Shown: positions 6,014 to 30,208 of the stretch, in pieces | Layout: the number at the start of each line of letters is the position of its first letter | Position numbering within the stretch: position 1 is the first letter of the stretch | NCBI GenBank assembly: GCA_017592775.1 | Contig: JAGFNJ010000044.1 | Coordinates: 1-44,613 of the forward strand | Direction: 5' to 3' | Length of the DNA: 44,613 nt | Origin: Candidatus Accumulibacter conexus | Lineage (GTDB): Bacteria; Pseudomonadota; Gammaproteobacteria; Burkholderiales; Rhodocyclaceae | Made by a program: the position numbers and the translations under genes | The notes under the pieces: generated by a model | The model's input: only the letters and a program-made list of their open reading frames with translations | Told to the model about the DNA's origin: nothing | The model's database searches: none

Positions 6014-6035
6014 ATTCCCATTGCCTGGCGACACG

Positions 6036-6475: not shown

Positions 6476-6496
6476 CACGCAAACGGAGTGTAAACT
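6469..6496 (+). promoter_or_regulatory. Sigma70-type promoter of the Xre/RES operon
   Basis: TTGCAA (6469-6474), a 16-bp spacer and TAAACT (6491-6496) make a good -35/-10 pair. The expected start near 6503 leaves a very short leader that holds AGGAG at 6506-6510, seven bases before the ATG at 6518. No obvious operator palindrome overlaps it. Confidence 0.55.
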
Positions 6497-6517
6497 ATCC
6501 GGAAAAGGAGCAACCTG

Positions 6518-7692: not shown

Positions 7693-7709
7693 GCCTGCGG
7701 ATCGTCCTC

Positions 7710-7761
7710 GCCCAAGGTGATGCCCTGCATCTCGCCGAGCGGCGGTGCATGGGCTCTCATC
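7710..7761. repeat. Short dispersed similarity to 13142-13193
   Basis: This stretch in the gap after the RES toxin aligns with 13142-13193, sharing GCCCA.GGTG..GCC.TGCATCTC and, on the minus strand, the reading 'LM.A.APP..EM.G.TLG'. The other copy sits at the end of an IS91 transposase remnant, so both may be scraps of one element. The rest of the gap 7693-7910 shows nothing else. Confidence 0.45.
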
Positions 7762-7910
7762 AGACTTGGCGGCACGGTCGGTGCACCCGGAAGGAAATGG
7801 CAGGCAACGCACCGCGGTGAAGCATCCCGTTCCTCATGGACGCTGTCGACTTGGTGACAGCCTTGCCATGGGCGCTTCAAACCCGCCACGTCAGGTCGCG
7901 CCAAAGGCAC

Positions 7911-10900: not shown

Positions 10901-11525
10901 GCTTGCCGATCTCCAGATACGGCGCCTCGACCACGCCAACCGCCCAACACGCCCAACACTGAACCAATGGAGGAAGCGCCGTATCCGCGACGTATTCATG
11001 GAACGTAGCGGCCAGCGCCAGCCCGTCTTCGACCTTGTGCCGGAGGTCGTATTCCAACTGGCGAATCTCGGGCCCGGCTTGCTCTGGATCGAGCCTGAGG
11101 CGATGGAATAACCGCTCGATGCGTCCGACCACCGAGTCGTCGGCGGTGAAGTGCGTCTCGGCACGGCTGGAGAGCGTGCGGAACAGGCTGGCCTGTTGCG
11201 AAGCCAGGGCTTTCCGTAGGGCCAGGCGCGCCGCCTCGTGGACGTTGATCGCCGTGCTGCCGCGCGCCCGAAAGGGCTCGACCACCGTCAGCCCGCGCAA
11301 TTGCGCAAGCCGGGCGGCGCTTTCCTGCGGCGAGATGGCCAGCAGGGCGGAGAGGATGGTCTCGTCGCACCAGTGCGGGATGGCGGCGGCTTCGAGGCTG
11401 GCTTTGAGGGTGGCACGCGCCGCCGCGGGCAGTTCCGCATACTTGAGGTCCACCGTCGCCAGCGCAAGCATCGCCGGGTTGCCCTGGGCAGCCTGCAGAG
11501 TCCGGAGTTGTCCAGCGAGGTCCAT
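7911..11525 (-). CDS. Giant TPR-like repeat protein, partner of the SEFIR NTPase
   Basis: A 1204-residue protein. ATG 11525 is one base after the stop of the SEFIR-NTPase gene, so the two are coupled. Residues 1-~250 are helical and non-repetitive. Then come 16 units of exactly 51 residues (10772 down to 8325), a 17th partial unit and a unique C-terminal ~85 residues. The unit consensus is 'ALGHYRRSLEVGERLLVANP' followed by 'ESAQAARDVSVSL' and 'LASRGLPGDAE', a helix-turn-helix pattern close to tetratricopeptide repeats of the kinesin-light-chain/ALGHY type. Variable positions cluster at two spots: after 'SLE' (V/L/F/A then G/C/R) and in the segment after 'VSL' (TQLAG, NKLAD, IQLGG, ERLAD). 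Such solenoids bind ligands or partners. Inference: the sensor or scaffold arm of a two-gene system whose enzymatic part is the SEFIR protein. Confidence 0.85.
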   Translation of the reverse strand: MDLAGQLRTLQAAQGNPAMLALATVDLKYAELPAAARATLKASLEAAAIPHWCDETILSALLAISPQESAARLAQLRGLTVVEPFRARGSTAINVHEAARLALRKALASQQASLFRTLSSRAETHFTADDSVVGRIERLFHRLRLDPEQAGPEIRQLEYDLRHKVEDGLALAATFHEYVADTALPPLVQCWACWAVGVVEAPYLEIGKRLALACRALQCADAAASDYASATAALLVADVLFEQGKPGDHDKALGHCRRSLEVRERLLVANPESAQAARDVSVSLTQLAGFLASRGLPGDAEEALGHYRRSLEVRERLLVANPESAQAARDVSVSLSKLADFLASRGLPGDAEVALRHYRRSLEVGERLLVANPESAQAARDMSVRLIQLGGLLASRGLPGDAEAALGHYRRSLEVGERLLVASPESAQAARDVSVSLTNLADFLASRGLPGDAEEALGHYRRSLEFCERLLVANPESAQAARDVSVSLNKLADFLASRGLPGDAEAALGHYRRSLEVGERLLVANPESALAARDVLVSLIQLGGFLASRGLPGDAEAALGHYRRSLELGERLLVANPESAQAARDVSVSLIRLGGFLASRGLPGDAEAALGHYRRSLELGEPLLVANPESAQAARDVSVSLERLADFLASRGLPGDAEESVGHYRRSLKLCERLLVANPQSAQAARDASVRLTKLADFLARRGLPGDAEEAFGHYRRSLELRERLLVANPESALAARDVSGSLERLGRFLASRGLPGDAEEALGHYRRSLEVGERLLVANPESAQAARDVLVSFIQLGDFLASRGLPGDAEEALGHYRRSLEVGERLLLANPESAQAARDVSVSLIQLGGFLASRGLPGDAEEALGHYRRSLEAGERLLVANPESAQAARDVSASLNKLAEFLASRGLPGDAEAALGHYRRSLEVGERLLVANPESAQAARDVVVSLIQFGGFLASRGLPGDAEAAFGHYRRSLGVGERLLAANPESAQAARDVSVSLNKLAAFLASRGLPGDAEAALGHCRRSLEVGERLLVANPESAQAARDVSVSLSKLADFLASRGLPGDAEESLGHYRRSLEFCERLLVANPESAQAARDVSVGLQRLAVCEGGWAGREAKALELQTRALGLALKLRERNPQSVFHGRAAAVSFLLTSQRAQAAGQEDLAAKYLAGCYGVLDELISAGCQLDPPMMRLHAQLKPMFSRP
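8325..10772. repeat. Tandem array of 16 x 153-bp units inside the TPR-like gene
   Basis: The array runs in frame in the minus-strand gene. Each unit is 153 bp with no insertions, and the units are nearly identical in DNA (for example GCCGACTCCGGGTTGGCC and CGCGCCGCCTGCGCCGACTC recur almost unchanged), with differences confined to a few codons. Such homogeneity points to recent expansion or gene conversion, and copy number is likely to vary between strains. Short-read assemblies could collapse the array. Confidence 0.92.
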
Positions 11526-11526
11526 G

Positions 11527-12678
11527 CTATGTCGTCGGGCCAAGCAACTGGGCCAATAGGGCGGCACTGCCGTTGCAGCAATCATGCGCCTGCCGGACGA
11601 ACTCGAGCGTAAGGCCCGGCTTGTGCGGTTGGCTGAATCGGAACCAGTCCTCCGGTTTCGGGGCTGTCAATTGGAGGGTTGGCGCGGTGCCCGCCGCCCA
11701 CGGGGCGCCAGCACGATTCGGTACCCGTTGCCCGGCGATGACGACGCGGAGGAAAGGCGCGCGGAGAACCGCCGGCAAGAGTTGCTTCTCGATCCAGTCC
11801 TGCGCCTCGCCAGCCTGCTCGTACGTGTCGAATATGAGAAGGACAGGTCGGGCGCGCTGTTTGAGGCCGGCAAGCAAGTGTGCCAGACGCTCGCTGAGCG
11901 TACCGTCCGCAGGCGGTGCCACCTCCAGGTACATCGCGAACGATTGAAGCTCCAGTGTGACAGAGGTCGTGCCCTTGAAATCGAAGCGGCCACAGGCCAG
12001 ACCGGAGAGGTTGAGTGCGCTACCCAGCATGAGGCGGGTGAGGTGGGTCTTGCCGGTTTCGCTGTCGCCGCGAACCAGGAGGCATCCCCATGGCGAACTC
12101 CTGGTGAGCAACTGGCCGAACGCGTCCCGAACCGGCCCGTGATCGGCGACCGGCCAGTCGAGCGCGGGCCCATTCTCCGGCCATTCGGTGGCTGCGCCAG
12201 GCGGCGGAAGCGCCGGCGCCACTCCGGTCAGCCAGTGGACGAGGTCGCCGAAATCCACAGGATCAGCGAAACGATGATAGCGCTGGAGGTCGGTAGGAAC
12301 CTCCGCCTGGGTGAGTGCCGAGAAGGTGACGATGCGGATATCCGCATTCACGCCAGCGACGTTGTAGAGGCGCTGCTCGATGACACCCGTCTCCGCCGAG
12401 GCGCCGAGCCCTTGGCCAGGAACCTCCTTGCCCTCGTAGCAGCGGAACCAGCCCGTGCTGGCGACAACGAGGATCTTGTGGCTTCTGTTGTCAGCCTGGT
12501 TCTTGCTCCAGCGGGGCCAGCCTTCGTTCGGTCCGCCGCCGTGGAAATCGCGTTCTTGCGCGAATTGGTCGAACACCACCGCCAGGCCAGCCTTTTCCAG
12601 CCGCGCCGCCAGGTCGCGCACCCGCGCGCGATGGTCATCGCTTTCGTGGCGGTAGCTGAGGAAGACGCTCGTCGGCAT
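11527..12678 (-). CDS. SEFIR/TIR-like domain protein with P-loop NTPase domain
   Basis: A 383-residue two-domain protein. Residues 1-~155 are a SEFIR-type fold: 'SVFLSYRHESDDHRARVRDL' with the Ser-Tyr box, then 'WPRWSKNQ' and 'GKEVPGQGLG', patterns usual for bacterial SEFIR domains. Residues ~175-383 are a STAND/AAA-like NTPase with Walker A 'GDSETGKT' (204-211) and Walker B 'VLLIFD' (279-284), and a sensor-like stretch 'VVIAGQR' after it. SEFIR and TIR domains assemble on signalling and in bacteria serve as effectors of antiphage systems. The NTPase without a long C-terminal repeat domain ends one base before the giant repeat gene, as if a single STAND protein had been split in two. ATG 12678 directly starts the SEFIR fold. 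Confidence 0.82.
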   Translation of the reverse strand: MPTSVFLSYRHESDDHRARVRDLAARLEKAGLAVVFDQFAQERDFHGGGPNEGWPRWSKNQADNRSHKILVVASTGWFRCYEGKEVPGQGLGASAETGVIEQRLYNVAGVNADIRIVTFSALTQAEVPTDLQRYHRFADPVDFGDLVHWLTGVAPALPPPGAATEWPENGPALDWPVADHGPVRDAFGQLLTRSSPWGCLLVRGDSETGKTHLTRLMLGSALNLSGLACGRFDFKGTTSVTLELQSFAMYLEVAPPADGTLSERLAHLLAGLKQRARPVLLIFDTYEQAGEAQDWIEKQLLPAVLRAPFLRVVIAGQRVPNRAGAPWAAGTAPTLQLTAPKPEDWFRFSQPHKPGLTLEFVRQAHDCCNGSAALLAQLLGPTT

Positions 12679-13523: not shown

Positions 13524-13787
13524 ATGTCGACACTCCTGGTCTCGTCAAAAGGCCAGATCGTCTTGCCCGCCGCATTGCGGCGCCGGCTCGGTATGGGTCC
13601 AGGCGCCAGGATCGAGGTACTCGAAGAAGCCGACGGACTGAAGCTGCGCGTCGTCCGTTCGGTCGCGACAACCGACGTGACTGGCATGGCGGGTATGGTC
13701 AAGGCGCCAGCACGCGGCGTCCCACGTCGCCTGGAGGATTTCGACCCTGCCACGCTGCTGACCCGGTCGCGGCGCGGCAAGCCATGA
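13524..13787 (+). CDS. vapB: AbrB/MazE-type antitoxin
   Basis: An 87-residue DNA-binding antitoxin. Residues ~2-47 form a swapped-hairpin AbrB domain ('TLLVSSKGQIVLPAALRRRL', 'GMGPGARIEVLEEADG'). The C-terminal tail ('RGVPRRLEDFDPATLLTRSR') is the flexible toxin-wrapping region. It neutralises the PIN toxin encoded next and probably represses the operon. ATG 13524 is preferred over the in-frame TTG at 13512 because the AbrB fold begins right there. Its stop overlaps the toxin start in ATGA. Confidence 0.85.
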   Translation: MSTLLVSSKGQIVLPAALRRRLGMGPGARIEVLEEADGLKLRVVRSVATTDVTGMAGMVKAPARGVPRRLEDFDPATLLTRSRRGKP

Positions 13788-14191
13788 GGGCCCTGGATAC
13801 GAACGTCCTGGCGCGGTTCCTCGTCGACGCTACCGACGATGCACAGGCCGCAGAACGGCGGCCCGCGGCCGTCGCAGCGCTCAGCGAACGATCGTTCGTC
13901 TCGGTGACTGTGCTGCTGGAATTGGAATGGGTCCTGCGTGGGTTCTATGAACTGCCAAAGAGAGACGTTTCTCGCGTGTTGCGGGCGCTGGCGAGCATCG
14001 AGCACATGACGCTGGAAGACCGCGACGCGGTCCTGGTGGCAGTCGATGCGTTCGACAAGGGTCTCGACTTTGCCGATGCGCTGCACCTGGCGCGCAGTTC
14101 GCGTGCCTCCCGATTTACGACATTCGATCAACGACTGGCGAAGCGGTCAAGGGGTCTCGCGCTGGCGCCGCCATTGGAGTTGCTGGTCTGA
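13784..14191 (+). CDS. vapC: VapC-type PIN-domain ribonuclease toxin
   Basis: A 135-residue PIN toxin. The acidic residues expected for Mg-dependent RNA cleavage are visible: Asp5 in 'MRALDTNVLARFLVD', the Glu in 'TVLLELEWVLR', Asp in 'DFADALHLA' and Asp in 'TFDQRLAKR'. Length and order fit VapC. It is coupled to the AbrB-type antitoxin gene. Its stop at 14189-14191 runs straight into an acyl-CoA synthetase fragment, so the pair may have inserted into or beside that decayed gene. Confidence 0.88.
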   Translation: MRALDTNVLARFLVDATDDAQAAERRPAAVAALSERSFVSVTVLLELEWVLRGFYELPKRDVSRVLRALASIEHMTLEDRDAVLVAVDAFDKGLDFADALHLARSSRASRFTTFDQRLAKRSRGLALAPPLELLV

Positions 14192-14375: not shown

Positions 14376-14854
14376 GATTGGCGCGTCGAGCATGACGCTG
14401 AGCCGCAACTTGCCGGCGCGTCGTGGCCGGGTACGCTCGAAGTCCTCTGGCGTGAGCTTTGGCACGTCATCCGCGACTTCCAGAGTGCGCCTCGCGCCTG
14501 CACCGAAGGGACGCTGACCGGCTCGGAAGACTCCCAGTACTCGGAAGCGAAGCTCCGGCAGATCAGGCAGGTCGTCGAGCGACTGCGCGGCCGCTAGGGA
14601 CTATCCGAACTGGACCGCCGTTGGGCCGCCAAGCTCACCGCCGTGCGCCAACTGGTTCGTCTTCACCGCGTGCGTGCCAGCCGCCACTGCTGGCGTGGCT
14701 GGCGACGAGCCCGCTGCGTGCGCGCGAACTGGCGGCGCAAGGCGCCCGGCTGCTCGGCATCGTCGGCGGGCTGCAGGCGCATCCACCCCCGGGCGAGTGC
14801 AATACCGCAGCAACCGCTCCAGGCCCGCCCCGCCGGCGCCTGCCGCGCCGGTAC
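14376..14854. other. Decayed DNA between the acyl-CoA ligase scrap and the permease copy
   Basis: Several plus-strand stretches look protein-derived but sit in different frames: 'TEVFDDWRVEHDAEPQ' running to 'QIRQVVERLRGR' with a stop at 14595-14597, then 'LSELDRRWAAKLTAVRQLVR' and 'LLAWLATSPLRARELAAQGA'. No family is recognised. I read this as remnants of one or more broken genes. Confidence 0.4.
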
Positions 14855-16204
14855 ACCCGCCGTGGCGTGCCCGCGCCGCAGGACGCCGACACTATGGCGA
14901 ACCGGGAGCACGCTGGCGGGCGACGCGGTCGTGCAGCAGCAGCCCGCCGAGGACGACGAAACCGGCCAGCATCAGCAGCAGCGAGACGTGCGCCGCCGCC
15001 TTGCTCGCGGCGTAGCTGACGCTCGACCATGCCAGCCCGGCGCAGGCGGCGCAGAACACCAGCGGCGTCAGCGGGTAGAGCGGTACGCGGAACGGGCGCG
15101 CAATACCGGGGTGGCACCGGCGCAGCCGGAAGACGGCCAGCCCGACCATGAACAGGAAGGTCCAGAAGACCGGCGCCGTGAACTCCACCATCGCCTCGAA
15201 GCCGTCGGCCTGGAAGGCACCGAAGACGACCAGCGCGAGGCTGATCGCCGTCTGCAGAACATGGCCATTCACCGGTGCACCCCGTCCGGCCTGCCAGCGG
15301 CCGAGGCGGCGCAGCGGCGCCCAGTCGCGGCCGAGCGCGTAGTTGCTGCGGGCGCCGACGATCATCGTCGAATGGATGCTGGTCAGCGCGGCGAGCGCGA
15401 CGAGCACGCCGAGCAGGCGTTCGCCCCACACGCCGAAATGCAGGCCGAGCACCTCGGCGCCGGCGGCCTTGCTGGTGGCAAGTCCGGCCAGGCCGAGGCC
15501 ATGCAGCAACGCAAGATTGGCGAGCAGGTAGAGGGCGGTGATGAAGCCCAGGCTGACGATCAGCACACGCGCGACGGCGCGCGGACCGCCGCGTAACTCG
15601 GCAGAGAGGTAGGCAGCCTCGTTCCAGCCGCCGAAGGTGAGCAGCACGAAGACCATCGCCAGCCCGAGCATGCCGGCCGACGGCGTGCTGGCGAACCAGG
15701 TCGGCGCCGGATGCGACGCCAGTCCGGCGGCTGGCGCGGCAAAGCCGGCCACGACGACGGCCGCCAGCCCGCCGACGAGCAGCAGCACCATCGCCGTCTG
15801 CAGGCGGGCGGCGACGGTCAGCCCGACGATGTTGGTGGCGGTGAGCACGATGATGATGGCGACCGCCCAGAACGCCGAAGAATGTGCGCCGAGATCGACG
15901 ACGCGCGTCATGTAGTCACCGAAGACGTAGGCGAGCAGGGCGATCGAGCCGGTGTTGATCACCATCGCCTTCGACCATGCGTAGAGGAAGGCCACGTGCT
16001 TGCCCCAGGCACGGCTGAGGAAGTGGTACTCACCGCCGGCATGCGGGTGCGCCGCGCACAGTTCGGCATAGCACAGCGCGCCGGCGAGCGAGACGAGCGC
16101 ACCGGCCAGCCAGGCGGCGATCAGCCAGCCGTGGTCCTGCGTCATGCCGGCGACCATGGCCGGTGTCTTGAAGATGCCGGCACCGACGACGATGCCGACG
16201 ACGT
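14855..16204. repeat. Left copy of a ~1.35-kb direct repeat (permease gene)
   Basis: This segment matches 21804-23153 base for base at a constant offset of 6,949, with no indels in the coding part and about 95 % identity. The right edge is sharp: after GATGCCGACGACG (16193-16205) the copies diverge completely. At the left edge similarity fades over 14855-14880. Both copies have the same orientation and flank the TIR/kinase operon. Confidence 0.88.
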
Positions 16205-16229
16205 TGGGCGCTCCCGGGGGAAAGCGCAT
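14892..16229 (-). CDS. APC-type amino-acid permease, N-terminally altered copy
   Basis: From ATG 16229 this gives 445 residues, with about 12 hydrophobic helices of the APC superfamily: 'VGIVVGAGIFKTPAMVAGMT' in helix 1 and 'CYAELCAAHPHAGGEYHFLS' in helix 3. Compared with the second copy (21841-23211), the first ~20 residues are replaced at the duplication edge by 'MRFPPGAPN'; the helix 1 core remains. An AGAGAAG site a few bases upstream could support translation, so it may be expressed, though helix 1 is shortened. Family members move amino acids by proton symport or exchange; the substrate is not determinable. It could also be a silent pseudogene. Confidence 0.65.
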   Translation of the reverse strand: MRFPPGAPNVVGIVVGAGIFKTPAMVAGMTQDHGWLIAAWLAGALVSLAGALCYAELCAAHPHAGGEYHFLSRAWGKHVAFLYAWSKAMVINTGSIALLAYVFGDYMTRVVDLGAHSSAFWAVAIIIVLTATNIVGLTVAARLQTAMVLLLVGGLAAVVVAGFAAPAAGLASHPAPTWFASTPSAGMLGLAMVFVLLTFGGWNEAAYLSAELRGGPRAVARVLIVSLGFITALYLLANLALLHGLGLAGLATSKAAGAEVLGLHFGVWGERLLGVLVALAALTSIHSTMIVGARSNYALGRDWAPLRRLGRWQAGRGAPVNGHVLQTAISLALVVFGAFQADGFEAMVEFTAPVFWTFLFMVGLAVFRLRRCHPGIARPFRVPLYPLTPLVFCAACAGLAWSSVSYAASKAAAHVSLLLMLAGFVVLGGLLLHDRVARQRAPGSP

Positions 16230-16607
16230 GACTTCTCTTGGTAGTCGCAACCGTCGGCCTCGTCTTCGCATGAAGCCGCGGCTGTCGCCTGAGCTTTCGC
16301 GATGGCGAGCGCGCCGCTCTTGTGCGGCAGGCGGCGGGGCTCGTCGGCGCGGCGGCGTCGCCATGCTGGCCGAGGATTGATCGGCAACACGTAGGGCATT
16401 TCCCATTCTCGCGACCATGGTAGTATGCTGTGGAAGGTCAAGAGGGGCGAAATGCGATCGGCGAACTCGCCAAAGGCCAGACTGGGGGGCCGACTCGTCG
16501 GGCGACGCTCGATGTCGTATCGCTGGCTCGAGCCGGCTCATTTCTCTTGACTCAAGACGTAGGAACTCGCTGCAGTTTCTCGCTGGTCTTTCGTCGCGGA
16601 GTGTCCG
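16230..16607. other. Gap upstream of the TIR/kinase operon
   Basis: These 378 bases contain no convincing gene. A weak promoter-like pair TTCCCA / TAGTAT is near 16403-16428. GGAG lies eight bases before the TIR gene ATG. The minus-strand frame of the permease stays open here, but the residues are low-complexity and unlike the permease family. Confidence 0.35.
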
Positions 16608-17579
16608 ATGACCAAGAAAGAAACGCTGTACATCAGCTATGCTGATCCGGACCGCGCCTTCGTTCGGCGCTTGGCTTCAAACCTCGAGGAAGCAGGGATA
16701 CGGGTTTCCTTCGACGAGCTATTGACGCCTGGCGACTCCTGGGCGGCGACGCTCCGCGAAGCGATCGAGTCGGCGCCGACGTTTCTTGCCGTGTTGTCAC
16801 CCGGCTACCTGAACTCCCGCTGGGCCAAGGAGGAGCTGATCGTCGCGCGGCAGCAAGAAATCGAAGGTCGAACCCGGGTGATCCTGCTGATGAGTCAGAA
16901 CTGCGACTTGCCGGGTGCCTTGGCCCGCGAAACCTACGTAGACTTCACCCAGGACTATCACTCGGGCCTTCAGCGACTCGTCGCGCAGTTGGCCTGCCCG
17001 CCCCATGCTCCGGTCGGCAGTCGACAGTCTCCCGCGTCCGGAACACGGAAGGTGCGCGCGGCGGTGGCGGATGGCCAATCGAATCTCGACGACCACGAGA
17101 AGCTCAACTTCTTCCGGCCGGTCCCGCCAAGACAGCCATCATCGAAGCCACCCCTGCGAGCGGCTGGCGACACGTCCAAAGCTTGTTTTGTCGTGATGCC
17201 GTTTGACAATGCCGATCTCGATGTGGTGTACGAGGACTTCATCCGTCCGATTCTGGCGGAGCAGTGCGGGTTGACCTGCCGGCGGGGCGACAGCGTCTTC
17301 GGTTCGAACGTCATCATGCAGGATGTCCTGAACCAGATCGGCGAGTCCGATTTCATTCTCGCGGATTTGACCGGCTGCAACCCCAATGTGCTCTATGAGG
17401 TGGGCATCTGCGACACGCTGAATAAACCCGTTCTCCTGCTCACTCAATCCAAGGACAGCATTCCGTTTGACCTCGGCCATCGTCGGGTTCTCATCTACGA
17501 CTACTCACCGCGCGGCTGCAAGACACTCGAACGAAGCTTGCCGGGCAACGTCGCTGCGGTGCTGGGGAGTCAGCGATGA
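16608..17579 (+). CDS. TIR domain fused to a deoxyribosyltransferase-like domain
   Basis: A 323-residue protein. Residues 1-~130 form a TIR domain: 'LYISYADPDRAFVRRLASNL', then 'LSPGYLNSRWAKEELIVARQ' with the WxxxE glutamate (W72, E76) used by NAD-cleaving TIR enzymes. After a Pro-rich linker (~133-185), residues ~190-300 form a second Rossmann-like domain of the nucleoside 2-deoxyribosyltransferase/TIR-like type: 'CFVVMPF' and 'ADLTGCNPNVLYEVGICDTL' with the catalytic-type Glu264. Two nucleotide-processing folds in one chain suggest an effector that consumes or senses NAD or a nucleotide. GGAG precedes the ATG, and the stop overlaps the histidine-kinase start (ATGA), so the three genes form one operon. 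Confidence 0.82.
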   Translation: MTKKETLYISYADPDRAFVRRLASNLEEAGIRVSFDELLTPGDSWAATLREAIESAPTFLAVLSPGYLNSRWAKEELIVARQQEIEGRTRVILLMSQNCDLPGALARETYVDFTQDYHSGLQRLVAQLACPPHAPVGSRQSPASGTRKVRAAVADGQSNLDDHEKLNFFRPVPPRQPSSKPPLRAAGDTSKACFVVMPFDNADLDVVYEDFIRPILAEQCGLTCRRGDSVFGSNVIMQDVLNQIGESDFILADLTGCNPNVLYEVGICDTLNKPVLLLTQSKDSIPFDLGHRRVLIYDYSPRGCKTLERSLPGNVAAVLGSQR

Positions 17580-20500
17580 AATCCAAGCGGCCAGAGCCTC
17601 GGGCGGAACTGCCGCCCAGCCCATGGGTGGGAAGCGATGACGTCGTCAGATGGCTCGAAATCGCGCTCGTACAAGACCTCGACAAGCTGCTCGACGCCAT
17701 CATTGTCGAGGTTCCCAAGACGGTCGGCGCGCGCGACTGTTCGGTTTACCTGCTGCCTCAGTTTGTCCAGCAGTTCAACGGGAAGCTGACGACTGGCGCG
17801 AACCAGTTGATCCCTTATACCGAAGTGGAAAAGAACTTTATCGTCAGCGCCCGTTCGACACAGGAAAACCCGAAGCGAACCTACGGGCAGGCCTACTACT
17901 GTGCGGGGGAGGGGTTGACCGGATGGGTATTCGAACAGCGCCGTCCTTTGCTGCTGCGCAACATGTGGGACGAAGACGAACGGAGACAACTCGTCCCGCC
18001 CGCCTACCACAGTGACAAGTACGGCCTGGGCAAGGAACTTGGGCGGGAACACGCACAACCCTTCCTGGCCATGCCGCTGACCACCGCTGCCGCTGAGTCG
18101 CTAGGCGTACTCAAACTGACCGGCACTCTCGACTCGGCGCCCTTTCCTCCGGAAGTGCAGGACTTTCTGCAGCCCGTCGTCCGTGCTTTGGCGGATTTGA
18201 TCCAACGCACGGCGAACCTTGAGCGCACGAAAGGCTTGAAGAAGCTGATGGCTAGCCTAGCCGCGAGATCGTCTTTGCGCGAGGTATTGGATACGGCAGC
18301 CAAGGAATTGCCGGATCTGGTCGACGGTTCCGACGCTGCGGTGTTCTTGCTCGACGAGAAGACCGGATACTACGTACTCCGAGCGACGACGAGCGACGTG
18401 TTGAAAGACAAGGTCGACAAGGCCTACTACCAGGCCGGCGAAGGACTGACAGGTTGGGTCGCCAGTCAGAAGCGACCGCTACGGGTAAAGAACCTGACCG
18501 ATCCGGCCGAACTGAAGGCTATTGACCCGGAGCTGAAATGGCTGGACAAGGACCAGGAGTACGGGCACCGCCCGACGCGCCAGTATCTCGCGGTCCCTTT
18601 GCTGTCTACGAAGGAGAGCGAGCCTGCCCTCGGCGTGATCCGCTTCCCGGTCCACCGCTACAACCAGAGCTTCACCAGTGACGACGAGCAACTGCTCGTC
18701 GATTTCGCTTCCAGCTTTGTTCAGATCCTCGAGACCGTCCGAGTCAGAGAGCTCTCCGGGCAGATCTCTGCCATCAAGGACTTGTTCCTGGCGTCGACCT
18801 TGAACCGGGAGCGTCTGTTGGAGGAGGCGACCCGAAGCACTGACCGTGTGCTTGGCGGCGACGGCTGCTCCCTCTTTCTCAGGGACGAGCGATCTGGACT
18901 CTATGAGCTGAGAGCCACCAGTTCACCGAGTCTTGCCAGGGAGATAGGGCACTTGGCCTACGCCGAGGGCGAAGGCAAGACCGGGCGAGTCATCAAGGAA
19001 CGGCGATCGCTGCGCCTCAACCCGGTCGAAGAACCTGAGATCTCCGTCAAGGACTCAGTGGAAGCGGACATCCAACACGGCGCGAAGTTTCTGGCGGCGC
19101 CGCTCCTCGCCGACAGCGGCGAACCGATAGGTGTCATTCGTCTTACCCGTCAGCAGAACAAGCCGGACTTCGTACAGGTGGACGAAAACCTGCTGAGTTC
19201 CATTGCTTCCATGCTAAGCCTTTCCTTGCAGACCCTCGCCGCGCATGAAACCAATCAAGAAATCGTCAGAGCGCTGCTGAGCATCGCCGAAACCAACGTC
19301 CGTCTGGTCCGCGACCAGCACCGCCTGCCGCTCAACGACCGCCGCGAGCAGTCGAGGTGGCTTGCCCTGACCACCGTCACCAGCCATGACGGTCTTCGCT
19401 TCAACCGAGCGGCGCTTTTCACCTGCGACCCCAAGCAACGGACGATTACCGGTATCTGTGCCGTCGGGCCGAAGACGCGCGAGGGCGCGCATACGCTCTG
19501 GAACCATGCGAAACGGATGTCTTTCGACGACCTCCTGGAACTCAATATCAAGGAGAGTAGCAAGCAAGGCTTCCATGAAACCATAGCGGGTCAGTGCCTG
19601 ACCTTGGGTGGCGAAGAAGATCCGGGTGCGACCCTCCCTTGGGCCGCCTGTGCCGAACCCGCGGCAGCATACCGCGTGCAGGGCGGCAAAGCCGAGATCA
19701 TGACTTCAGACGGTTTCCTCCCCTCTCCCTGTTCGATTCCGCAAAGCTTCCTCGATCTGGTCGATTGCGACTGCTTCGCGCTGATCCCGTTTTCCGGACT
19801 GGATGCCCTGCCGAGCGTCCTCTACGTCGACAACCGCTTCAACCAGAGGGCGATATCGATCGACCAACTGAGGCCGTTGACCGTATTTGCCGACTTTTTC
19901 GGAACCAGCATGAGTCTGGCGGAGGCTCAGGATCGGCTCCTTCTCCGCTCCGAGCGCTTGGCGACCCTCGGCGAGTTCGCAACGTCCTTCAGCCACCAAG
20001 CGCGGCAGCCGTTGCAGATCATCAGCAACTCGGTAAGGCTCCTGGAAGATGAGTCGGATGTCCAAAAGTCGGCTTCGCTTCGACAACGCTTGATCGAATT
20101 GCGCGAAGGCCTCGGCCGGCTGGAAGTCGCGCTGAGATACCTCAACGGCTTTGCACGACAGGACTGCCTGCCCGAGGGCGAGCTGATAGACCTTGGGCAG
20201 ACACTCCGAGGTGCGACGGATTTTGTCGCTGCGCAATTGAAGAATCACGGCATTTCCGTGTCCACGGACATCGCCCCGGACCTGCCGAGGATCCCGATCA
20301 ATCCGGCAGATCTCCAGGACATCCTGCTCAACCTCATCGCGAACGCGCGTGACGCCATGGAGGACGGAGGCGAGCTGAGCTTGCGGGCGTCCATGCGATC
20401 GGATTGGGTCGTTGTGGAGGTCAGCGATACCGGGAGGGGAATTCCGGAAAAGGACCGCGAAGCCATTTTCGAACCGCTGTTCACCACCAAACCGACCGAG

Positions 20501-20641
20501 AAGGGCATGGGCATGGGTCTGGCGCTATCGCGAAGACTCGCCGAGCGCATCGGGGGTTCCCTCAAACTGGCTTTGCCATCCGGGCAGCGCAACGGAGAAA
20601 GCTTCGTGCTCAGCCTACCTACCAAAGGTCAGACGCGATGA
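17576..20641 (+). CDS. Multi-GAF sensor histidine kinase
   Basis: A 1021-residue cytosolic kinase without membrane helices. Three related GAF domains occupy about residues 25-210, 220-390 and 400-560; each contains a 'YYQAGEGLTGWV'-like motif (YYCAGEGLTGWVFEQ, YYQAGEGLTGWVASQ, YAEGEGKTGRVIKE). A fourth, diverged GAF-like region follows to ~780. The transmitter has the H-box 'EFATSFSHQARQPLQI' with His807, an N-box 'NLIANARDAMEDGG', and G boxes 'DTGRGIPEKD', 'LFTTKPTEKGMGMGL'. All ATP-binding motifs look intact. GAF domains bind small ligands such as cyclic nucleotides. The gene is coupled upstream to a TIR/deoxyribosyltransferase-like protein and downstream to a receiver protein, so the kinase may sense the status on which the TIR protein acts, or gate it. 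Confidence 0.88.
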   Translation: MKSKRPEPRAELPPSPWVGSDDVVRWLEIALVQDLDKLLDAIIVEVPKTVGARDCSVYLLPQFVQQFNGKLTTGANQLIPYTEVEKNFIVSARSTQENPKRTYGQAYYCAGEGLTGWVFEQRRPLLLRNMWDEDERRQLVPPAYHSDKYGLGKELGREHAQPFLAMPLTTAAAESLGVLKLTGTLDSAPFPPEVQDFLQPVVRALADLIQRTANLERTKGLKKLMASLAARSSLREVLDTAAKELPDLVDGSDAAVFLLDEKTGYYVLRATTSDVLKDKVDKAYYQAGEGLTGWVASQKRPLRVKNLTDPAELKAIDPELKWLDKDQEYGHRPTRQYLAVPLLSTKESEPALGVIRFPVHRYNQSFTSDDEQLLVDFASSFVQILETVRVRELSGQISAIKDLFLASTLNRERLLEEATRSTDRVLGGDGCSLFLRDERSGLYELRATSSPSLAREIGHLAYAEGEGKTGRVIKERRSLRLNPVEEPEISVKDSVEADIQHGAKFLAAPLLADSGEPIGVIRLTRQQNKPDFVQVDENLLSSIASMLSLSLQTLAAHETNQEIVRALLSIAETNVRLVRDQHRLPLNDRREQSRWLALTTVTSHDGLRFNRAALFTCDPKQRTITGICAVGPKTREGAHTLWNHAKRMSFDDLLELNIKESSKQGFHETIAGQCLTLGGEEDPGATLPWAACAEPAAAYRVQGGKAEIMTSDGFLPSPCSIPQSFLDLVDCDCFALIPFSGLDALPSVLYVDNRFNQRAISIDQLRPLTVFADFFGTSMSLAEAQDRLLLRSERLATLGEFATSFSHQARQPLQIISNSVRLLEDESDVQKSASLRQRLIELREGLGRLEVALRYLNGFARQDCLPEGELIDLGQTLRGATDFVAAQLKNHGISVSTDIAPDLPRIPINPADLQDILLNLIANARDAMEDGGELSLRASMRSDWVVVEVSDTGRGIPEKDREAIFEPLFTTKPTEKGMGMGLALSRRLAERIGGSLKLALPSGQRNGESFVLSLPTKGQTR

Positions 20642-21060
20642 GCCAAGTATTGATAGTCGACGACGAGGCCACCATTCGAAACCAGTTCCGCGACTTTCTT
20701 GCCAACTGGAACGTCGAGGTACTGGTTGCCGGTAGCCTCCCGGAAGCCGAACACTTGATCGCTGGCCATGATGTTGGCGTGATCATCCAAGACCTTTTCC
20801 TGGATGCGCCTGTAACCCAAGTGTACGAGTTTATCGAGAAGCACTGCGGGCCGGACCTCGGGCGCGAAGCCATCGTCATCACCGGCTACCTCGCGAAGGC
20901 CGATTTCCGACGAATGGTCGACATAGGTGCCTATTGCTTCTTTGAGAAACCCGTCAGCCTGGACGAACTGCTGATCGCCACATGGGCGGCCGAGGGACGA
21001 GCCGATCGGATGGCACTCGTAAACGGGCGACGTGGTAGGGCGACGTTATCCGGTTCTTGA
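20638..21060 (+). CDS. Single-domain response regulator (receiver)
   Basis: A 140-residue CheY-like receiver with no output domain. Acidic pocket Asp8/Asp9 ('VLIVDDEATIRNQF'), phosphoacceptor Asp52 ('VIIQDLFLD'), Thr82 ('ITG') and Lys104 ('FFEKPV') are all present. The start overlaps the kinase stop in ATGA. Without a DNA-binding domain it must act by protein contact, possibly on the TIR protein, or as a phosphate sink. The last ~20 residues are basic and probably disordered. Confidence 0.88.
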   Translation: MSQVLIVDDEATIRNQFRDFLANWNVEVLVAGSLPEAEHLIAGHDVGVIIQDLFLDAPVTQVYEFIEKHCGPDLGREAIVITGYLAKADFRRMVDIGAYCFFEKPVSLDELLIATWAAEGRADRMALVNGRRGRATLSGS

Positions 21061-21294
21061 CACACACGCCCGTTTCGCACCACCCAGGTTCGTCAATGTC
21101 GAGACGGGTGGCCTGCGCCGGCTGGCCGGAATCGGGGAGTTTGCTGGCAGCCTATCGTGCGCGAACGATCATGGTTTCCGTACCGCTCAGGTCAAGAAGC
21201 TGGTGAATCTCAGCCACGGCAAGTTCTACCGCGCCCGGCTCGGCGACGCCGACCGGCCGCTGTTTTCGCTCGTTCGCCGCGGCGACGAGGCGCA
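21061..21294. other. Gap after the receiver gene; possible gene scrap
   Basis: Plus-strand reading gives 'AQVKKLVNLSHGKFYRARLG', which resembles the 'GKFYRARL...DRLLF' segment of small toxin-like or helicase-associated proteins, with no start and no intact frame. No terminator hairpin with a T-run is visible. Confidence 0.3.
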
Positions 21295-21497: not shown

Positions 21498-21790
21498 CCC
21501 ACCTCCCTGAGATACACGCCGGATCCCAGTACGCTGCCGCCGCATGCCCTGGGCGTCGTGGAACAAGCCTTGCACCGCGCCTGCCCGACGGCGGTTCTGG
21601 ATTCGCTGATCGGCGCGGGGGCCTTCATTCACGCCTTCCTGGCGCGCTGCTCAAACCGCATCAGCACTTCCACGGCCTCGTCATCTAGGCCATCTTCGAA
21701 GCTGACACGGCCGGCACCGTGGCGCTTTACGAAAGCCGTTCGCGCGAGCGGAAGTTCCTCGACGAAGTGCAGGCCACGATCCGTCGACCC
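21498..21790 (+). pseudogene. Unidentified decayed gene
   Basis: Protein-like stretches occur in successive frames: 'RYTPDPSTLPPHALGVVEQA' through 'VLDSLIGAGAFIHAF' (from 21513), then 'LLKPHQHFHGLVI' with a stop, then 'AIFEADTAGTVALYESRSRE' through 'RKFLDEVQATIRRPLL'. This looks like a frameshifted C-terminal gene piece ending at the edge of the permease repeat. No family recognised. Confidence 0.35.
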
Positions 21791-21803
21791 CTGCTGCGCG
21801 CGC

Positions 21804-23153
21804 ACACGCCGTGCGGCGCTCGCGCCGGAAGACGCCGACACTATGGCGAACCGGGAGCACGCTGGCGGGCGACGCGCTCGTGCAGCAGCAGCCCGCCGAG
21901 CACGACGAAACCGGCCAGCATCACCAGCAGCGAGACGTGCACCGCCGCCTTGCTCGCGGCGTAGCTGACGCTCGACCATGCCAGCCAGGCGCACGCGGCG
22001 CAGAACACCAGCGGCGTCAGCGGGTAGAGCGGTACGCGGAACGGCCGCGCGATGCCGGGGTGGCGCCGGCGCAACCGGAAGACGGCCAGCCCGACCATGA
22101 ACAGGAAGGTCCAGAACACCGGCGCCGTGAACTCCACCGTCGCCTCGAAGCCATCGGCCTGAAAGGCGCCGAAGACGACCAGCGCGAGGCTGATCGCCGT
22201 CTGCAGGACATGGCCATTCATCGGCCCGGCCCGTCCGGCCTGCCAGCGGCCGAGGCGGCGCAGCGGCGCCCAGTCGCGGCCGAGCGCGTAGTTGCTGCGG
22301 GCGCCGACGATCATCGTCGAATGGATGCTGGTCAGCGCGGCGAGCGCGACGAGCACGCCAAGCAGGCGTTCGCCCCAGGCGCCGAAATGCAGGCCGAGCA
22401 CCTCCGCGCCGGCAGCCTTGCTGGTGGCAAGTCCGGCAAGGCCGAGGCCGTGCAGCAACGCGAGATTGGCGAGCAGGTAGAGGGCGGTGATGAGGCTCAG
22501 GCTGAGCATCAGCACGCGGGCGACGGCGCGCGGACCGCCGTGTACCTCGGCAGAGAGGTAGGCTGCCTCGTTCCAGCCGCCGAAGGTGAGCAGCACGAAG
22601 ACCATCGCCAGCCCGAGCATGCCGGCCGACGGCGTGCTGGCGAACCAGGTCGGCGCCGGATGCGACGTCAGGCCAGCGGCTGGCGCGGCGAAGCCGGCGA
22701 CGACGACGGCCGCCAACCCGCCGACGAGCAGCAGCACCATCGCCGTCTGCAGGCGGGCGGCGACGGTCAGTCCGAGGATGTTGGTGACGGTGAGCACGAT
22801 GATGATGGCGACCGCCCAGAGCGCCGAAGAATGCGCGCCGAGATCGACGACGCGCGTCATGTAGTCACCGAAGACGTAGGCAAGCAGGGCGATCGAGCCG
22901 GTGTTGATCACCATCGCCTTCGACCATGCGTAGAGGAAAGCCACGTGCTTGCCCCAGGCACCGCTGAGGAAGTGGTACTCACCACCGGCATGCGGGTGCG
23001 CCGCGCACAGTTCGGCATAGCACAGCGCGCCGGCGAGCGAGACGAGCGCACCGGCCAGCCAGGCGGCGATCAGCCAGCCGTGGTCCTGCGTCATGCTGGC
23101 GACCATGGCCGGTGTCTTGAAGATGCCGGCACCGACGACGATGCCGACGACGA
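21804..23153. repeat. Right copy of the ~1.35-kb direct repeat (permease gene)
   Basis: Partner of 14855-16204 at a constant offset of 6,949. Here the permease gene continues past the repeat edge into a normal N-terminus and an upstream co-transcribed gene, so this copy is probably the source of the duplication. Confidence 0.88.
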
Positions 23154-23211
23154 TGGCGACCGCACCCGTCGTGTGCAGCAAGTGGCGGGGGTCGTCGGCG
23201 CCGGCGTCCAT
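21841..23211 (-). CDS. APC-type amino-acid permease, complete copy
   Basis: A 456-residue transporter with about 12 hydrophobic helices. Helix 1 is 'AIVVGIVVGAGIFKTPAM', with the unwound GxGIF motif that binds the substrate amino and carboxyl groups in the APC superfamily. ATG 23211 gives a short polar N-terminus ('MDAGADDPRHLLHTTG'). It starts 10 bp after the stop of the exported methyltransferase gene, so the two are probably one operon. Differences from the left copy are about 18 substitutions scattered over the loops and helices. The substrate is unknown. Confidence 0.87.
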   Translation of the reverse strand: MDAGADDPRHLLHTTGAVAIVVGIVVGAGIFKTPAMVASMTQDHGWLIAAWLAGALVSLAGALCYAELCAAHPHAGGEYHFLSGAWGKHVAFLYAWSKAMVINTGSIALLAYVFGDYMTRVVDLGAHSSALWAVAIIIVLTVTNILGLTVAARLQTAMVLLLVGGLAAVVVAGFAAPAAGLTSHPAPTWFASTPSAGMLGLAMVFVLLTFGGWNEAAYLSAEVHGGPRAVARVLMLSLSLITALYLLANLALLHGLGLAGLATSKAAGAEVLGLHFGAWGERLLGVLVALAALTSIHSTMIVGARSNYALGRDWAPLRRLGRWQAGRAGPMNGHVLQTAISLALVVFGAFQADGFEATVEFTAPVFWTFLFMVGLAVFRLRRRHPGIARPFRVPLYPLTPLVFCAACAWLAWSSVSYAASKAAVHVSLLVMLAGFVVLGGLLLHERVARQRAPGSP

Positions 23212-23221
23212 GGTGGGCGTT

Positions 23222-24067
23222 TCAGCGGCGCTCGCCGCGGACGCTGCCGGTGGCCTGCGGGTGCTTCTGCTGGCCGACGAAGCGCCGGCCGTCGGCGGTG
23301 GCGGTGACGGTTGCCGTCGTGCCGTCCGGCCGGAGGTAGTCGAAATGCAGCGTCGCACCCTGTAGCCGGCCCTGGACGGCAACGATCCGCTCGCCGACCG
23401 TGAGGATGCCGGAGACCTGCTGGTAGGCCTGTGTCAATTGCAGGCGGGTCGGCGCGGCCTCGCCCGGCAGGCGCAACGACCATTCGCCAGCCACCTGCGC
23501 CGGCACGATCCAGAAGAAGGCCTCCGCGTTCTCCGTCGCGATCGTCACATCGGGTTGCCAGTCGCCCATGTCGAAAGCGTGCGAGACGATGCGCGTGCCC
23601 GGCTTCATCTGCAGCAGCAGCGGCCGCAGCTTGCGGTTGAGGACAGGCGTCAGGAACATCGTCACCACCGTCGCCGCGGAAAAATCCTCGACGAGGATGT
23701 CGCCGACAACGATCTTCACCCGCCCCTCGAGGCCGGCGCGGTTGACGTTGCGCCGCGCCAGTGCGGCGATTTCCGGCGAGTACTCGATGCCGACCGCGCG
23801 GGCGCCGAACGCTCGTGCCGCGGCGATCGGAATCCGTCCCTCGCCGGCGCCGAGGTCATAGACGATGTCCGCCGGCGTCACCTTTGCCGTCTGCAGCATC
23901 CGCGTCACCATGGCATCCGGCGTCGGCGCCCAGAAGACATCCTTGCCGTCGTGCCCGTGTTCGAGGCGGAACTGCTCGTCGCCGTAGTTCCTGGCGGAAT
24001 GGACGGGGTGCGCCAGCCCAAGGACCAGGGCGCAGGTGGCAAGAACGCGGAGGAACTGTGCTGGCAT
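23222..24067 (-). CDS. Exported class I SAM-dependent methyltransferase-like protein
   Basis: A 281-residue protein. ATG 24067 is chosen because it begins a signal peptide ('MPAQFLRVLATCALVLGLAH', cleavage near 'VHSA'). The body is a class I methyltransferase fold: motif I 'DIVYDLGAGEGRIPIAAARA', acidic end of strand 2 'AVGIEYSPE' and motif II region 'VKIVVGDILVEDFSAATVV'. The C-terminal ~100 residues form a beta-rich extension ('LQGATLHFDYLRPDGTTATV'). A methyltransferase with an export signal is odd because SAM is cytosolic: it may be membrane-anchored with the enzyme kept inside, or the domain may no longer methylate. It is the first gene before the permease. Confidence 0.8.
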   Translation of the reverse strand: MPAQFLRVLATCALVLGLAHPVHSARNYGDEQFRLEHGHDGKDVFWAPTPDAMVTRMLQTAKVTPADIVYDLGAGEGRIPIAAARAFGARAVGIEYSPEIAALARRNVNRAGLEGRVKIVVGDILVEDFSAATVVTMFLTPVLNRKLRPLLLQMKPGTRIVSHAFDMGDWQPDVTIATENAEAFFWIVPAQVAGEWSLRLPGEAAPTRLQLTQAYQQVSGILTVGERIVAVQGRLQGATLHFDYLRPDGTTATVTATADGRRFVGQQKHPQATGSVRGERR

Positions 24068-24222
24068 GGACGGCAGGCGTGTCGGATACGGCAGGGGGCG
24101 CAGGATTCGCTGGAGTATAGCCGCAGGCGCCGCCGGTCCGCCTGCGTATGGATCAATGAACGCCCCATGGACCATCGGGCGCTCTCGCCTGAACTGGCAG
24201 CTTCTGCGATGGATTCCGATTT

Positions 24223-24239
24223 GTACCGAAATAAGGTAC
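24223..24239 (+). promoter_or_regulatory. Palindromic operator candidate of the nucleotidyltransferase/HEPN pair
   Basis: GTACC-gaaataa-GGTAC is a perfect 5-bp inverted repeat centred 44 bases upstream of the start. A possible -10 (TACGAT, 24237-24242) overlaps its right arm. A repressor bound here would block the promoter, and the first gene product has an N-terminal winged-helix domain, so autoregulation is plausible. Confidence 0.45.
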
Positions 24240-24274
24240 GATCGTGCCGAATTCAGGTTCGTTTGGAGTGCTGC

Positions 24275-24877
24275 GTGAATCTTCCGTCATCCTCCGGAGT
24301 GGCCCGGGCACTGTTCAGCAAGACGCTGGGCGGGGTGCTGGCGCTCCTCTTCGGGCAGCCCGGAAAAGCCTTCTATACACGCGAAATCGTCAAGCGGGTG
24401 GGTACCGGCGGCAGCCAGGTCGGCAAGGATCTGGAACGGCTGACTGGCGCTGGCCTCATCCTGCGCGAGCAGCGCGGCAACTTGGTGTTCTACCGTGCGA
24501 ATCCGGACGCCGCCGTCCATCACGAGTTGGTCGGCCTTGTTGCCAAGTCGTTCGGCATCGCTGAGCAACTGCGCGGTTTCATCGAGCCGTTGGCCGATCG
24601 TATCCAGTACGCGGCCGTTCATGGCTCGGTGGCGCGGGGAGAGCACCGCGCCGACAGCGACGTCGACCTGCTGCTCGTCGGCGACGTGCGCCTGTCCGAA
24701 CTGGCGATTCCGCTGCACGATGCAGAAGCCGCGCTCGGCATGAAAGTGTCGCCTACCGTCGTGACGCTTGCGGAGTTCCGCAAGCGTCACGAAAGCGGCG
24801 ACCATTTCCTCAAGAAGGTGCTGGCCGGTGATCTCGTCACGCTGTGGAGCTCCATCGAGCACGAGGATGCCGCATGA
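24275..24877 (+). CDS. Winged-helix plus minimal nucleotidyltransferase (MNT-type antitoxin-like) protein
   Basis: A 200-residue protein with a GTG start at 24275, preceded by GGAG six bases upstream. Residues ~12-80 form a winged helix ('FYTREIVKRVGTGGSQVGKD', 'LERLTGAGLILREQRGN'). Residues ~108-195 form a DNA polymerase beta-type nucleotidyltransferase with 'HGSVARGEHRADSDVDLLLV' (Gly117-Ser118, Asp129 and Asp131). In HEPN-MNT systems such a protein modifies the HEPN toxin and silences it. It overlaps the HEPN-like gene by ATGA. The winged helix is an addition to the minimal MNT antitoxin and fits DNA binding at the palindrome upstream. Confidence 0.85.
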   Translation: MNLPSSSGVARALFSKTLGGVLALLFGQPGKAFYTREIVKRVGTGGSQVGKDLERLTGAGLILREQRGNLVFYRANPDAAVHHELVGLVAKSFGIAEQLRGFIEPLADRIQYAAVHGSVARGEHRADSDVDLLLVGDVRLSELAIPLHDAEAALGMKVSPTVVTLAEFRKRHESGDHFLKKVLAGDLVTLWSSIEHEDAA

Positions 24878-26126: not shown

Positions 26127-26543
26127 TCACTCCTCGAGGCGCAGTCCGGTGGGGTCCTGCAATACCGGACCGGGTCTCCGCACCGCGGCAGGATGCGTCG
26201 AAGCCATCTCGGGACGGAGCACGATTCGCCCGGCGACCGCGACGCGGCGATCGTTGAGCCGAACGATCTCCTCGCTCGACCGCGCTTCCATGCCGAGTCC
26301 GATGCGTGCCGGCATGTCGCCGGCAGCCGGATCGTACGCCGAAGCACTGCCATCGATCTGAATGACGACCTCGCCCAGGTCCACGTACTCGGGCGGCCGG
26401 CCCGGACGGGGCATCTTCTTCAGGCTGGGCACGGACAGGTAGGTCCCCACGAGGCGGACCCGCTGGCCATCGAACTGCCTCAGTTGCTCCGCCCGATCAA
26501 GGCGCGGCGGCAACTCGTGGCGCACTGCTTCCGCTTTGGTCAC
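26127..26543 (-). CDS. Hypothetical protein translationally coupled to the DUF4157 gene
   Basis: A 138-residue cytosolic protein. GTG 26543 overlaps the TGA of the DUF4157 gene in GTGA, so it is translated with it. It reads as a compact beta-rich domain: 'QFDGQRVRLVGTYLSVPSLK', 'VDLGEVVIQIDGSASAYD', 'VRLNDRRVAVAGRIVLRPEM'. The 'GQRVRLVGTY ... RRVAVAGRI' pattern is OB-fold-like. Its position directly behind a probable effector suggests an immunity, chaperone or accessory protein. No family recognised. Confidence 0.65.
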   Translation of the reverse strand: MTKAEAVRHELPPRLDRAEQLRQFDGQRVRLVGTYLSVPSLKKMPRPGRPPEYVDLGEVVIQIDGSASAYDPAAGDMPARIGLGMEARSSEEIVRLNDRRVAVAGRIVLRPEMASTHPAAVRRPGPVLQDPTGLRLEE

Positions 26544-29873: not shown

Positions 29874-29879
29874 TATAAT
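29874..29879 (+). promoter_or_regulatory. -10 box of the riboswitch-controlled cob operon
   Basis: A perfect TATAAT at 29874-29879 with a poor -35 (TTTCCG, 29852-29857, 16-bp spacer). Transcription would start around 29886, at the first bases of the cobalamin riboswitch. Confidence 0.6.
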
Positions 29880-29884
29880 CAACC

Positions 29885-30085
29885 CCGTTTCGGGTGCCTT
29901 GCCTCGTGGTCACGGGGCGGGTGAAACGGGAAGCCGGTGCACGGCGGCGTCGCCAACGACGCCAGCCCATTCCGGCGCAGCCCCCGCTGCTGTAAGCCTG
30001 ACGACTCCGCAAACCGCCACTGTGCCCAGGCACGGGAAGGCGCGGGGAAGGTCGAGGGCGAGCCAGAAGACCGGCCCGAAACCGG
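29885..30085 (+). ncRNA. Cobalamin (B12) riboswitch
   Basis: The conserved order of the adenosylcobalamin riboswitch is visible: GGGTGCC (from ~29892), GGGAAGCCGGTGC near 29938-29950, CGCAGCCCCCGCTGCTGTAA (about 29978-29997), GCCACTGTGCCC..GGCACGGGAAGG, and the B12 box GAGCCAGAAGACC near 30059-30071. It precedes cbiM by ~125 bases, within which no classical terminator is obvious, so control of translation of cbiM (GGGAGG site at 30197-30202) is as likely as attenuation. High cobalamin should shut off cobalt uptake and corrin synthesis. Confidence 0.93.
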
Positions 30086-30208
30086 ATTGCACCATTCCCC
30101 GGGGTGACGGGAAGGCGTCTCTGGTCGCGCGCCGTTCGAGTCCAGGCCACCTTCCTCCTGCGGGATTTTTCTGCTGACGGGTCGTCAGTCGCCGAAGGGA
30201 GGATCGCT

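Follow-up and report, generated by a model that had tools for sequence, protein, structure and literature searches.

A mobile operon for a TIR-DrHyd protein, a GAF histidine kinase and a lone receiver in Accumulibacter: a possible Detocs-like conflict or stress module

The DNA analysed here (the window) is a stretch of 44,613 nucleotides, contig 42 of the 4.87-Mb genome (G000) of Candidatus Accumulibacter conexus, which belongs to a genus of wastewater bacteria. Three open reading frames (ORFs) follow one another on its plus strand at 16608-17579 (323 residues), 17576-20641 (1021 residues) and 20638-21060 (140 residues), and encode a protein with a TIR and a DrHyd domain (P0001), a histidine kinase with GAF domains (P0002) and a lone receiver (P0003). 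The P0001/P0002 and P0002/P0003 joints are two ATGA overlaps of four bases. The operon carries the expected active-site residues in its three proteins, was transferred as a unit and is under purifying selection; it may form a mobile conflict or stress module resembling Detocs, in which a phosphorelay gates the TIR-DrHyd effector. A sequence-only reading had proposed a three-gene operon with ATGA joints, which the ORF coordinates and the two overlaps bear out, and Glu76, Glu264, His807 and Asp52 were all found where it had placed them. Pfam domains of window proteins are reported at E<=0.01, curated cut-offs being given separately. The features of the unit and of its immediate borders are the following.

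16608..17579, plus strand: gene 1, P0001, 323 residues; TIR, variable linker, DrHyd/nucleoside-hydrolase-like domain
16608..16997, plus strand: TIR domain, about residues 1-130
16833..16835, plus strand: codon of E76, putative catalytic glutamate of the TIR domain, in a WAKEE context
17163..17564, plus strand: DrHyd or deoxyribosyltransferase-like domain, about residues 186-319
17397..17399, plus strand: codon of E264, in an LYEVG context, invariant in 27 aligned sequences
17576..20641, plus strand: gene 2, P0002, 1021 residues; soluble multi-GAF histidine kinase; ATGA overlap with gene 1
17630..19240, plus strand: three GAF domains, at about 17630-18214, 18290-18740 and 18788-19240
19256..19930, plus strand: stretch without Pfam match, proposed as a fourth GAF, residues ~561-785
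19967..20623, plus strand: HisKA and HATPase_c kinase core, FixL/ZraS-like; H807 codon at 19994-19996
20638..21060, plus strand: gene 3, P0003, 140 residues; lone receiver
16339..21134, plus strand: unit common to the window and Accumulibacter Bin45, from DNA alignment; ends approximate
14820..16207, minus strand: amino-acid permease segment, copy A; direct repeat, 94.7% identical to copy B
21770..23156, minus strand: permease segment, copy B; five related genomes have one long match each and no unit in the stretch examined

The first half of P0001 matched TIR_2 (PF13676) at E=1.5e-27, and its closest solved relatives by sequence were bacterial TIR proteins, including 3h16, which we take to be PdTIR, and the NAD hydrolase AbTIR. 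An alignment of ten TIR domains, P0001 and its copy included, contained nine invariant columns, among them W72 and E76. The second half matched Nuc_deoxyrib_tr (PF05014) at E=1e-4, under the curated cut-off (22.8 vs 28.8 bits). However, a profile of 27 DrHyd sequences (P0001, its copy and 25 relatives) matched the solved Rcl/DNPH1, a 2'-deoxynucleoside 5'-phosphate N-hydrolase, at E=1.5e-6, and the predicted identity of the second domain draws stronger support from this match than from Pfam alone. Left out of the alignments were 9 of 36 DrHyd rows and 2 of 12 TIR rows (duplicates, decayed pieces from genome G405, one fragment and some distant rows). E264 was the sole invariant column among the 27 DrHyd sequences and, in the profile match, was aligned with the YELG-motif glutamate of Rcl/DNPH1, presumably catalytic in Rcl. 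The two conserved glycosidase-type glutamates, E76 and E264, thus support the earlier claim that P0001 combines two potential nucleotide-cleaving folds. When TIR and DrHyd sequences were aligned jointly with MAFFT, the TIR domains were superimposed on the DrHyd half, E264 and the TIR glutamate sharing a column, which indicates that the two domains of P0001 are alike and agrees with a published TIR-DrHyd-SLOG clade (PMC9503650). Besides TIR and DrHyd, no sensor domain was recognised in P0001 by Pfam at E<=0.01, nor was Response_reg or any PNP family.

Pfam detected GAF in three stretches of P0002 (E=1.7e-34). Four GAF-type domains had been claimed; three of them are confirmed, while the fourth found no support, since residues ~561-785 gave no Pfam match and a comparison with profiles of the three GAFs returned a probability of 0.1%, from very shallow alignments. 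In the kinase core, HATPase_c was matched at E=1.8e-21 and HisKA at E=0.0036, under its cut-off (17.7 vs 26.9 bits). The G1, F and G2 boxes are present, and an N-box-like NLIANARDA was read by eye. No stretch of P0002 is hydrophobic enough for a transmembrane helix (best 19-residue mean, 1.57), and the protein therefore fits the cytosolic kinase of 1021 residues that had been predicted.

P0003 matched Response_reg at E=1.1e-11 and retains a complete receiver active site (D8, D9, D52, T82, K104); about 20 residues extend beyond the receiver fold, and its best solved matches were NtrC-type receivers. In agreement with the sequence-only reading, no output domain was recognised by Pfam. The residues expected of an orthodox two-component system (H, N and G in the kinase, D/D/D/T/K in the receiver) are intact, with Gln at the position following the histidine. 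As a sensor was not recognised in P0001, nor an output domain in P0003, both proteins seem to depend on a partner. For free receivers, a role as nucleotide-responsive switches has been proposed (PMC8195603).

A search for the three-gene order, suggested at the outset, found it again in one further intact copy, in the metagenome-assembled genome Accumulibacter Bin45 (G421; loci L039/L059), which is another species of the same genus. In BLASTN of the window against Bin45, only 16339-21134 aligned, at 92.1% identity over 4799 aligned bases, and this was repeated on a second Bin45 stretch. The Bin45 copy keeps the same gene order and ATGA overlaps, and the flanks of the two units are unrelated. 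Moreover, four other genomes of the genus (G411, G406, G418 and G401) have the host locus without the unit, with matches on both sides of a single permease; in a fifth, G403, the host locus was matched on the right-hand side only. The unrelated flanks of the Bin45 copy and the four loci without the unit show that the three genes travel as one unit, which is mobile and forms a physical as well as an evolutionary unit. The unit in the window lies between two copies of the permease; that its insertion duplicated the permease is no more than plausible. Around the approximate unit ends no inverted word of at least 8 bases was shared in either copy and one direct 8-base word occurred in the window only, so a simple transposon with terminal repeats is not supported. 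The Bin45 unit has presumably transposase-like ORFs on both sides, and an OmpR-type receiver and kinase pair of ordinary type lies ~1.3 kb beyond that unit.

Comparison of the two copies by the NG86 method gave ratios of nonsynonymous to synonymous divergence (dN/dS) of 0.256 for P0001, 0.124 for P0002 and 0.284 for P0003. All three genes, with values <0.3, are under purifying selection, and the low ratios of the three genes make chance an unlikely explanation. Within P0001 the ratio was 0.197 for TIR, 0.899 for the linker and 0.130 for DrHyd; both folded domains are constrained and the linker is not. The dN values were 0.069 for P0001, 0.081 for P0003 and 0.021 for P0002, with dS of 0.27, 0.28 and 0.17, respectively. 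The faster divergence of P0001 and P0003 might be what a co-varying receiver-effector pair could show, in a single comparison in which dS differs too.

The unit is rare in the samples searched. These genome samples overlap and lie within one phylum, complemented by plasmid, phage and viral collections, and the statement on rarity is confined to them. Both in the genus and in the order, TIR and DrHyd are common, modular domains: of 399 genomes sampled from the order, 38 had some match to P0001 at E<=1e-8, and each match listed from a genome other than that of the window covers one domain, some with the linker. In the genus, 22 of 28 genomes gave some match, full-length in the window genome and Bin45 only. 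Among 152 loci, ORFs with both TIR and DrHyd profiles occurred only in the loci carrying the two unit copies. The sensor part of P0002 (residues 1-789) was found in 2 of 28 genomes of the genus at E<=1e-10. Several searches returned the window genome alone: whole P0002 in the class (1/369 at E<=1e-40, two candidates scored per genome), GAF1 in the phylum (1/398 at E<=1e-6) and P0003 in the order (1/240 at E<=1e-12, at most 17 candidates scored per genome). Two others in the order added one genome each, namely GAF2-3 (2/250 at E<=1e-12, the second a 31% partial match) and the kinase core (2/240 at E<=1e-30, the second a PAS-type FixL-like kinase; at most 11 candidates scored). Among 72,556 plasmid records, P0001 was matched in 70, none covering 80%, and P0002 in one at E<=1e-20, by its kinase core only; GAF2-3, P0003 and the unit DNA had no match there. 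Among 50,697 phages, P0001 was matched in 40 records, none covering 80%, and P0002 in 39, the best 20 of which matched the kinase core only. Pattern scans of IMG/VR, which detect close relatives only, found neither P0001 nor P0002. As an observation apart, the window genome has 16 TIR_2 matches, of which 14 lie above the curated cut-off.

A known system with a comparable layout is Detocs, in which DtcB is a lone receiver and DtcC carries a receiver linking the effector to the kinase. Its parts are described as the kinase DtcA, the phosphate-absorbing DtcB and the response regulator DtcC (PMC11728103), and the best-described form of this three-gene defensive two-component system degrades ATP via a PNP effector (PMC11249213). 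The sequence-only reading knew of no TIR effector coupled to a phosphorelay; the wider suggestion that no nucleotide effector is so coupled is not supported, since Detocs has one (PMC11249213, PMC11728103; named also in PMC9966839). The unit shares with Detocs a three-gene operon with a histidine kinase and a lone receiver, and an effector predicted to destroy nucleotides. However, P0001 belongs to no PNP family at E<=0.01, whereas the best-described Detocs effector is a PNP-type ATP nucleosidase, and the sensor here is a GAF array, a distinction drawn from domain content and published descriptions. Since the effector departs from Detocs on two points, having neither a receiver nor a PNP domain, we did not file the unit as Detocs; by analogy, it appears to share the logic of Detocs with a different effector. 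Four E. coli loci, from five half-covered matches at the published Detocs hotspot, contained Avs4 in all cases and Detocs in none.

The unit was also set against other systems with related domains. P0001 resembles Thoeris ThsB and the bacterial TIR NAD hydrolases in its TIR with a WxxxE glutamate and in its sequence matches to 3h16 and AbTIR. It differs from them by the additional DrHyd domain and kinase-receiver pair; in the unit Pfam found no ThsA-type SIR2/SLOG partner, and PADLOC matches to ThsB were weak (best E=1.3e-4). The PADLOC model 'Effector TIR' (PDLC00733), a label that we take to denote a CBASS effector, matched the DrHyd half of P0001 at E=8.7e-9 and also that of 10 of 10 DrHyd relatives scanned. 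The Pfam label for TIR-type CBASS/Pycsar effectors is CAP12-PCTIR_TIR, but the Pfam scan of the unit gave no cyclase, no SAVED and no cyclic-nucleotide-binding domain, and the nucleotidyltransferase domain at 23438-24877 lies outside the unit and was not identified as a CD-NTase. With the DrHyd, nucleoside 2-deoxyribosyltransferase and Rcl-DNPH1 family the second domain shares the YE(L/V)G glutamate and the profile match given above; it differs in being fused to TIR and in falling below the PF05014 cut-off. In a survey of related conflict systems, one class of effectors included receivers, but histidine kinases were absent from it (PMC7159879). A literature search, limited to the accessible parts of its sources, did not turn up any account of a TIR gene accompanied by a kinase and a receiver in this arrangement.

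The most economical scheme runs from the kinase through the receiver to P0001, because P0001 lacks a recognised sensor and P0003 lacks an output. We infer that the soluble kinase P0002 would sense a signal from inside the cell (probably a small molecule or a nucleotide) through its GAF domains and autophosphorylate on H807; the phosphate would then pass to D52 of P0003, which would act in trans on P0001 and release its activity. P0001 would cleave N-glycosidic bonds, of NAD via TIR and of nucleotides or deoxynucleotides via DrHyd, so that growth of the stressed or infected cell would stop. The role of such a module is probably a stress or anti-phage response. To this reading, a mobile Detocs-like conflict or stress module in which a phosphorelay gates the TIR-DrHyd effector, we assign a probability of about 0.45.

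Several observations weigh against it. The strongest weakness is that two intact copies only were found, so that conservation of the gene order rests on one comparison. H807 is directly followed by Gln, where Glu or Asp is usual; in the window genome, where 30 of 43 HisKA matches were scanned and the motif was readable in 29, Gln also follows the phospho-histidine in 2 of 29 other kinases. Unlike DtcC, a response regulator, P0001 has no receiver of its own (Pfam, E<=0.01), and neither P0002 nor P0003 had a match in PADLOC (2023). Finally, no kinase or receiver was matched at E<=0.1 within the 19 kb examined at the locus of a decayed two-domain relative in G405, and iterated profiles found a lone receiver with a kinase in 0 of 39 other TIR/DrHyd neighbourhoods.

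The G405 relative (L060:8894-11671) is a TIR-DrHyd sequence broken into three segments, of 35%, 40% and 69% identity, that contain stop codons and shifts of frame; downstream, the first long ORF encodes an AAA-TIR protein of 521 residues. As neither kinase nor receiver lies beside this relative, the two-domain protein may have had other regulators. TIR homologues regularly found alone would have contradicted the sequence-only reading; for the two-domain protein this was seen once only, in the decayed and diverged G405 case, and is not regular, whereas the common single-domain TIR or DrHyd relatives mostly have no kinase or receiver nearby. Forty such neighbourhoods were examined, one being the Bin45 unit. 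A single-sequence search of the 39 others gave no receiver and one weak kinase, and was too weak, as it missed the OmpR-type receiver near the Bin45 unit. Iterated profiles, which recover that receiver, detected receivers in two (L075, L091) and kinases in three (L091, L068, L097). By Pfam, L091 has a CHASE-PAS hybrid kinase on the strand opposite the TIR gene, L068 a HATPase protein 3.4 kb away, and L075 a receiver-GAF-PAS-GGDEF-EAL protein upstream of the DrHyd gene. At the last locus (6689-11262, minus strand) the DrHyd gene lies just downstream of this protein, which ends in a further receiver; the arrangement is perhaps chance, perhaps a cyclic-di-GMP link. Separately, a putative gene with two DrHyd-profile stretches (L141:14080-15711), overlapped by a longer ORF on the opposite strand, was seen close to the permease locus in a further Accumulibacter genome.

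The order of events could also be reversed: P0001 would make a messenger from NAD or a nucleotide, the GAF domains of P0002 would bind it, and the kinase would drive the receiver onto another target in the cell. GAF is placed among the nucleotide-binding sensors, and TIR/DrHyd among the signal-generating enzymes, of conflict systems (PMC7159879, PMC9503650); the P0001 gene stands first in the operon, the only sensors recognised in P0002 are its three GAF domains, and biochemically this order is nearly as natural as that from kinase to receiver to P0001. We nevertheless consider it unlikely, as nothing recognised in P0001 would sense a trigger and the unit revealed no alternative output for the receiver. 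Slightly less probable is that the kinase and receiver are an ordinary stress-sensing pair and travel with a TIR-DrHyd toxin that they do not control by direct phosphotransfer. The decayed G405 relative, the modularity of TIR and DrHyd in the genus and order, and the 39 neighbourhoods all agree with such an accessory pair, but both copies have the ATGA overlaps, the genes moved as a unit, all three are constrained, and P0003 has no output domain with which to serve a separate regulon.

An improbable third possibility takes P0003, a bare receiver like DtcB, for a phosphate sink, P0002 controlling P0001 by direct contact or via another receiver; because P0001 has no recognised receiver, phosphate would then have no route to the effector. 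That P0001 is a non-enzymatic TIR-TIR-like scaffold of two related Rossmann-like domains for assembly or ligand binding is very improbable, since, although related domains are non-catalytic in some systems (SLOG domains and TIR sensors, PMC9503650) and the MAFFT overlay shows the two P0001 domains to be alike, the catalytic-type glutamates are kept (E76 in 10/10 TIR rows, E264 in 27/27 DrHyd rows) and both domains are under purifying selection.

Other window ORFs within ~11 kb of the unit carry RES, SEFIR, PIN and nucleotidyltransferase domains, as detected by Pfam.

5536-7692, plus strand: RES-domain ORF, E=5.7e-32
7911-12678, minus strand: SEFIR-AAA plus TPR ORFs
13784-14191: PIN-domain ORF
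23438-24877: nucleotidyltransferase-domain ORF, outside the unit

Judged from the domain content of nearby ORFs alone, these neighbours are compatible with a conflict-gene hotspot. RES domains are of a type known for NAD-degrading toxins, and four related genomes have a match to the DNA of the RES ORF at the corresponding locus. The SEFIR-AAA ORF (11527-12678) overlaps the TPR ORF (7911-11585), in which a 153-bp sequence is repeated in tandem 16.6 times (8232-10774, 88% matches); the two are perhaps one SEFIR-NTPase-TPR conflict protein split over two ORFs. Further along, an ORF at 26540-28252 (minus strand) has an eCIS_core domain (E=6.5e-14) and may mark cargo of a contractile injection system, and a cobalamin riboswitch (29875-30093, plus strand, 121.5 bits) precedes ORFs with CbiD and tetrapyrrole methylase domains.

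More tentatively, the operon may be a new kind of immune module, in which a phosphorelay via a free receiver switches a dual N-glycosidase-type effector, and an independently built second Detocs-like design carried as one mobile unit. If this is true, Detocs with its ATP nucleosidase would not be the only case of an immune effector gated by a phosphorelay. TIR biology would be linked to histidine kinases, whose inputs are testable, and the trigger could be searched for through ligand binding by the GAF domains. With the dual effector, one could also study whether the loss of NAD and that of nucleotides have a joint effect.

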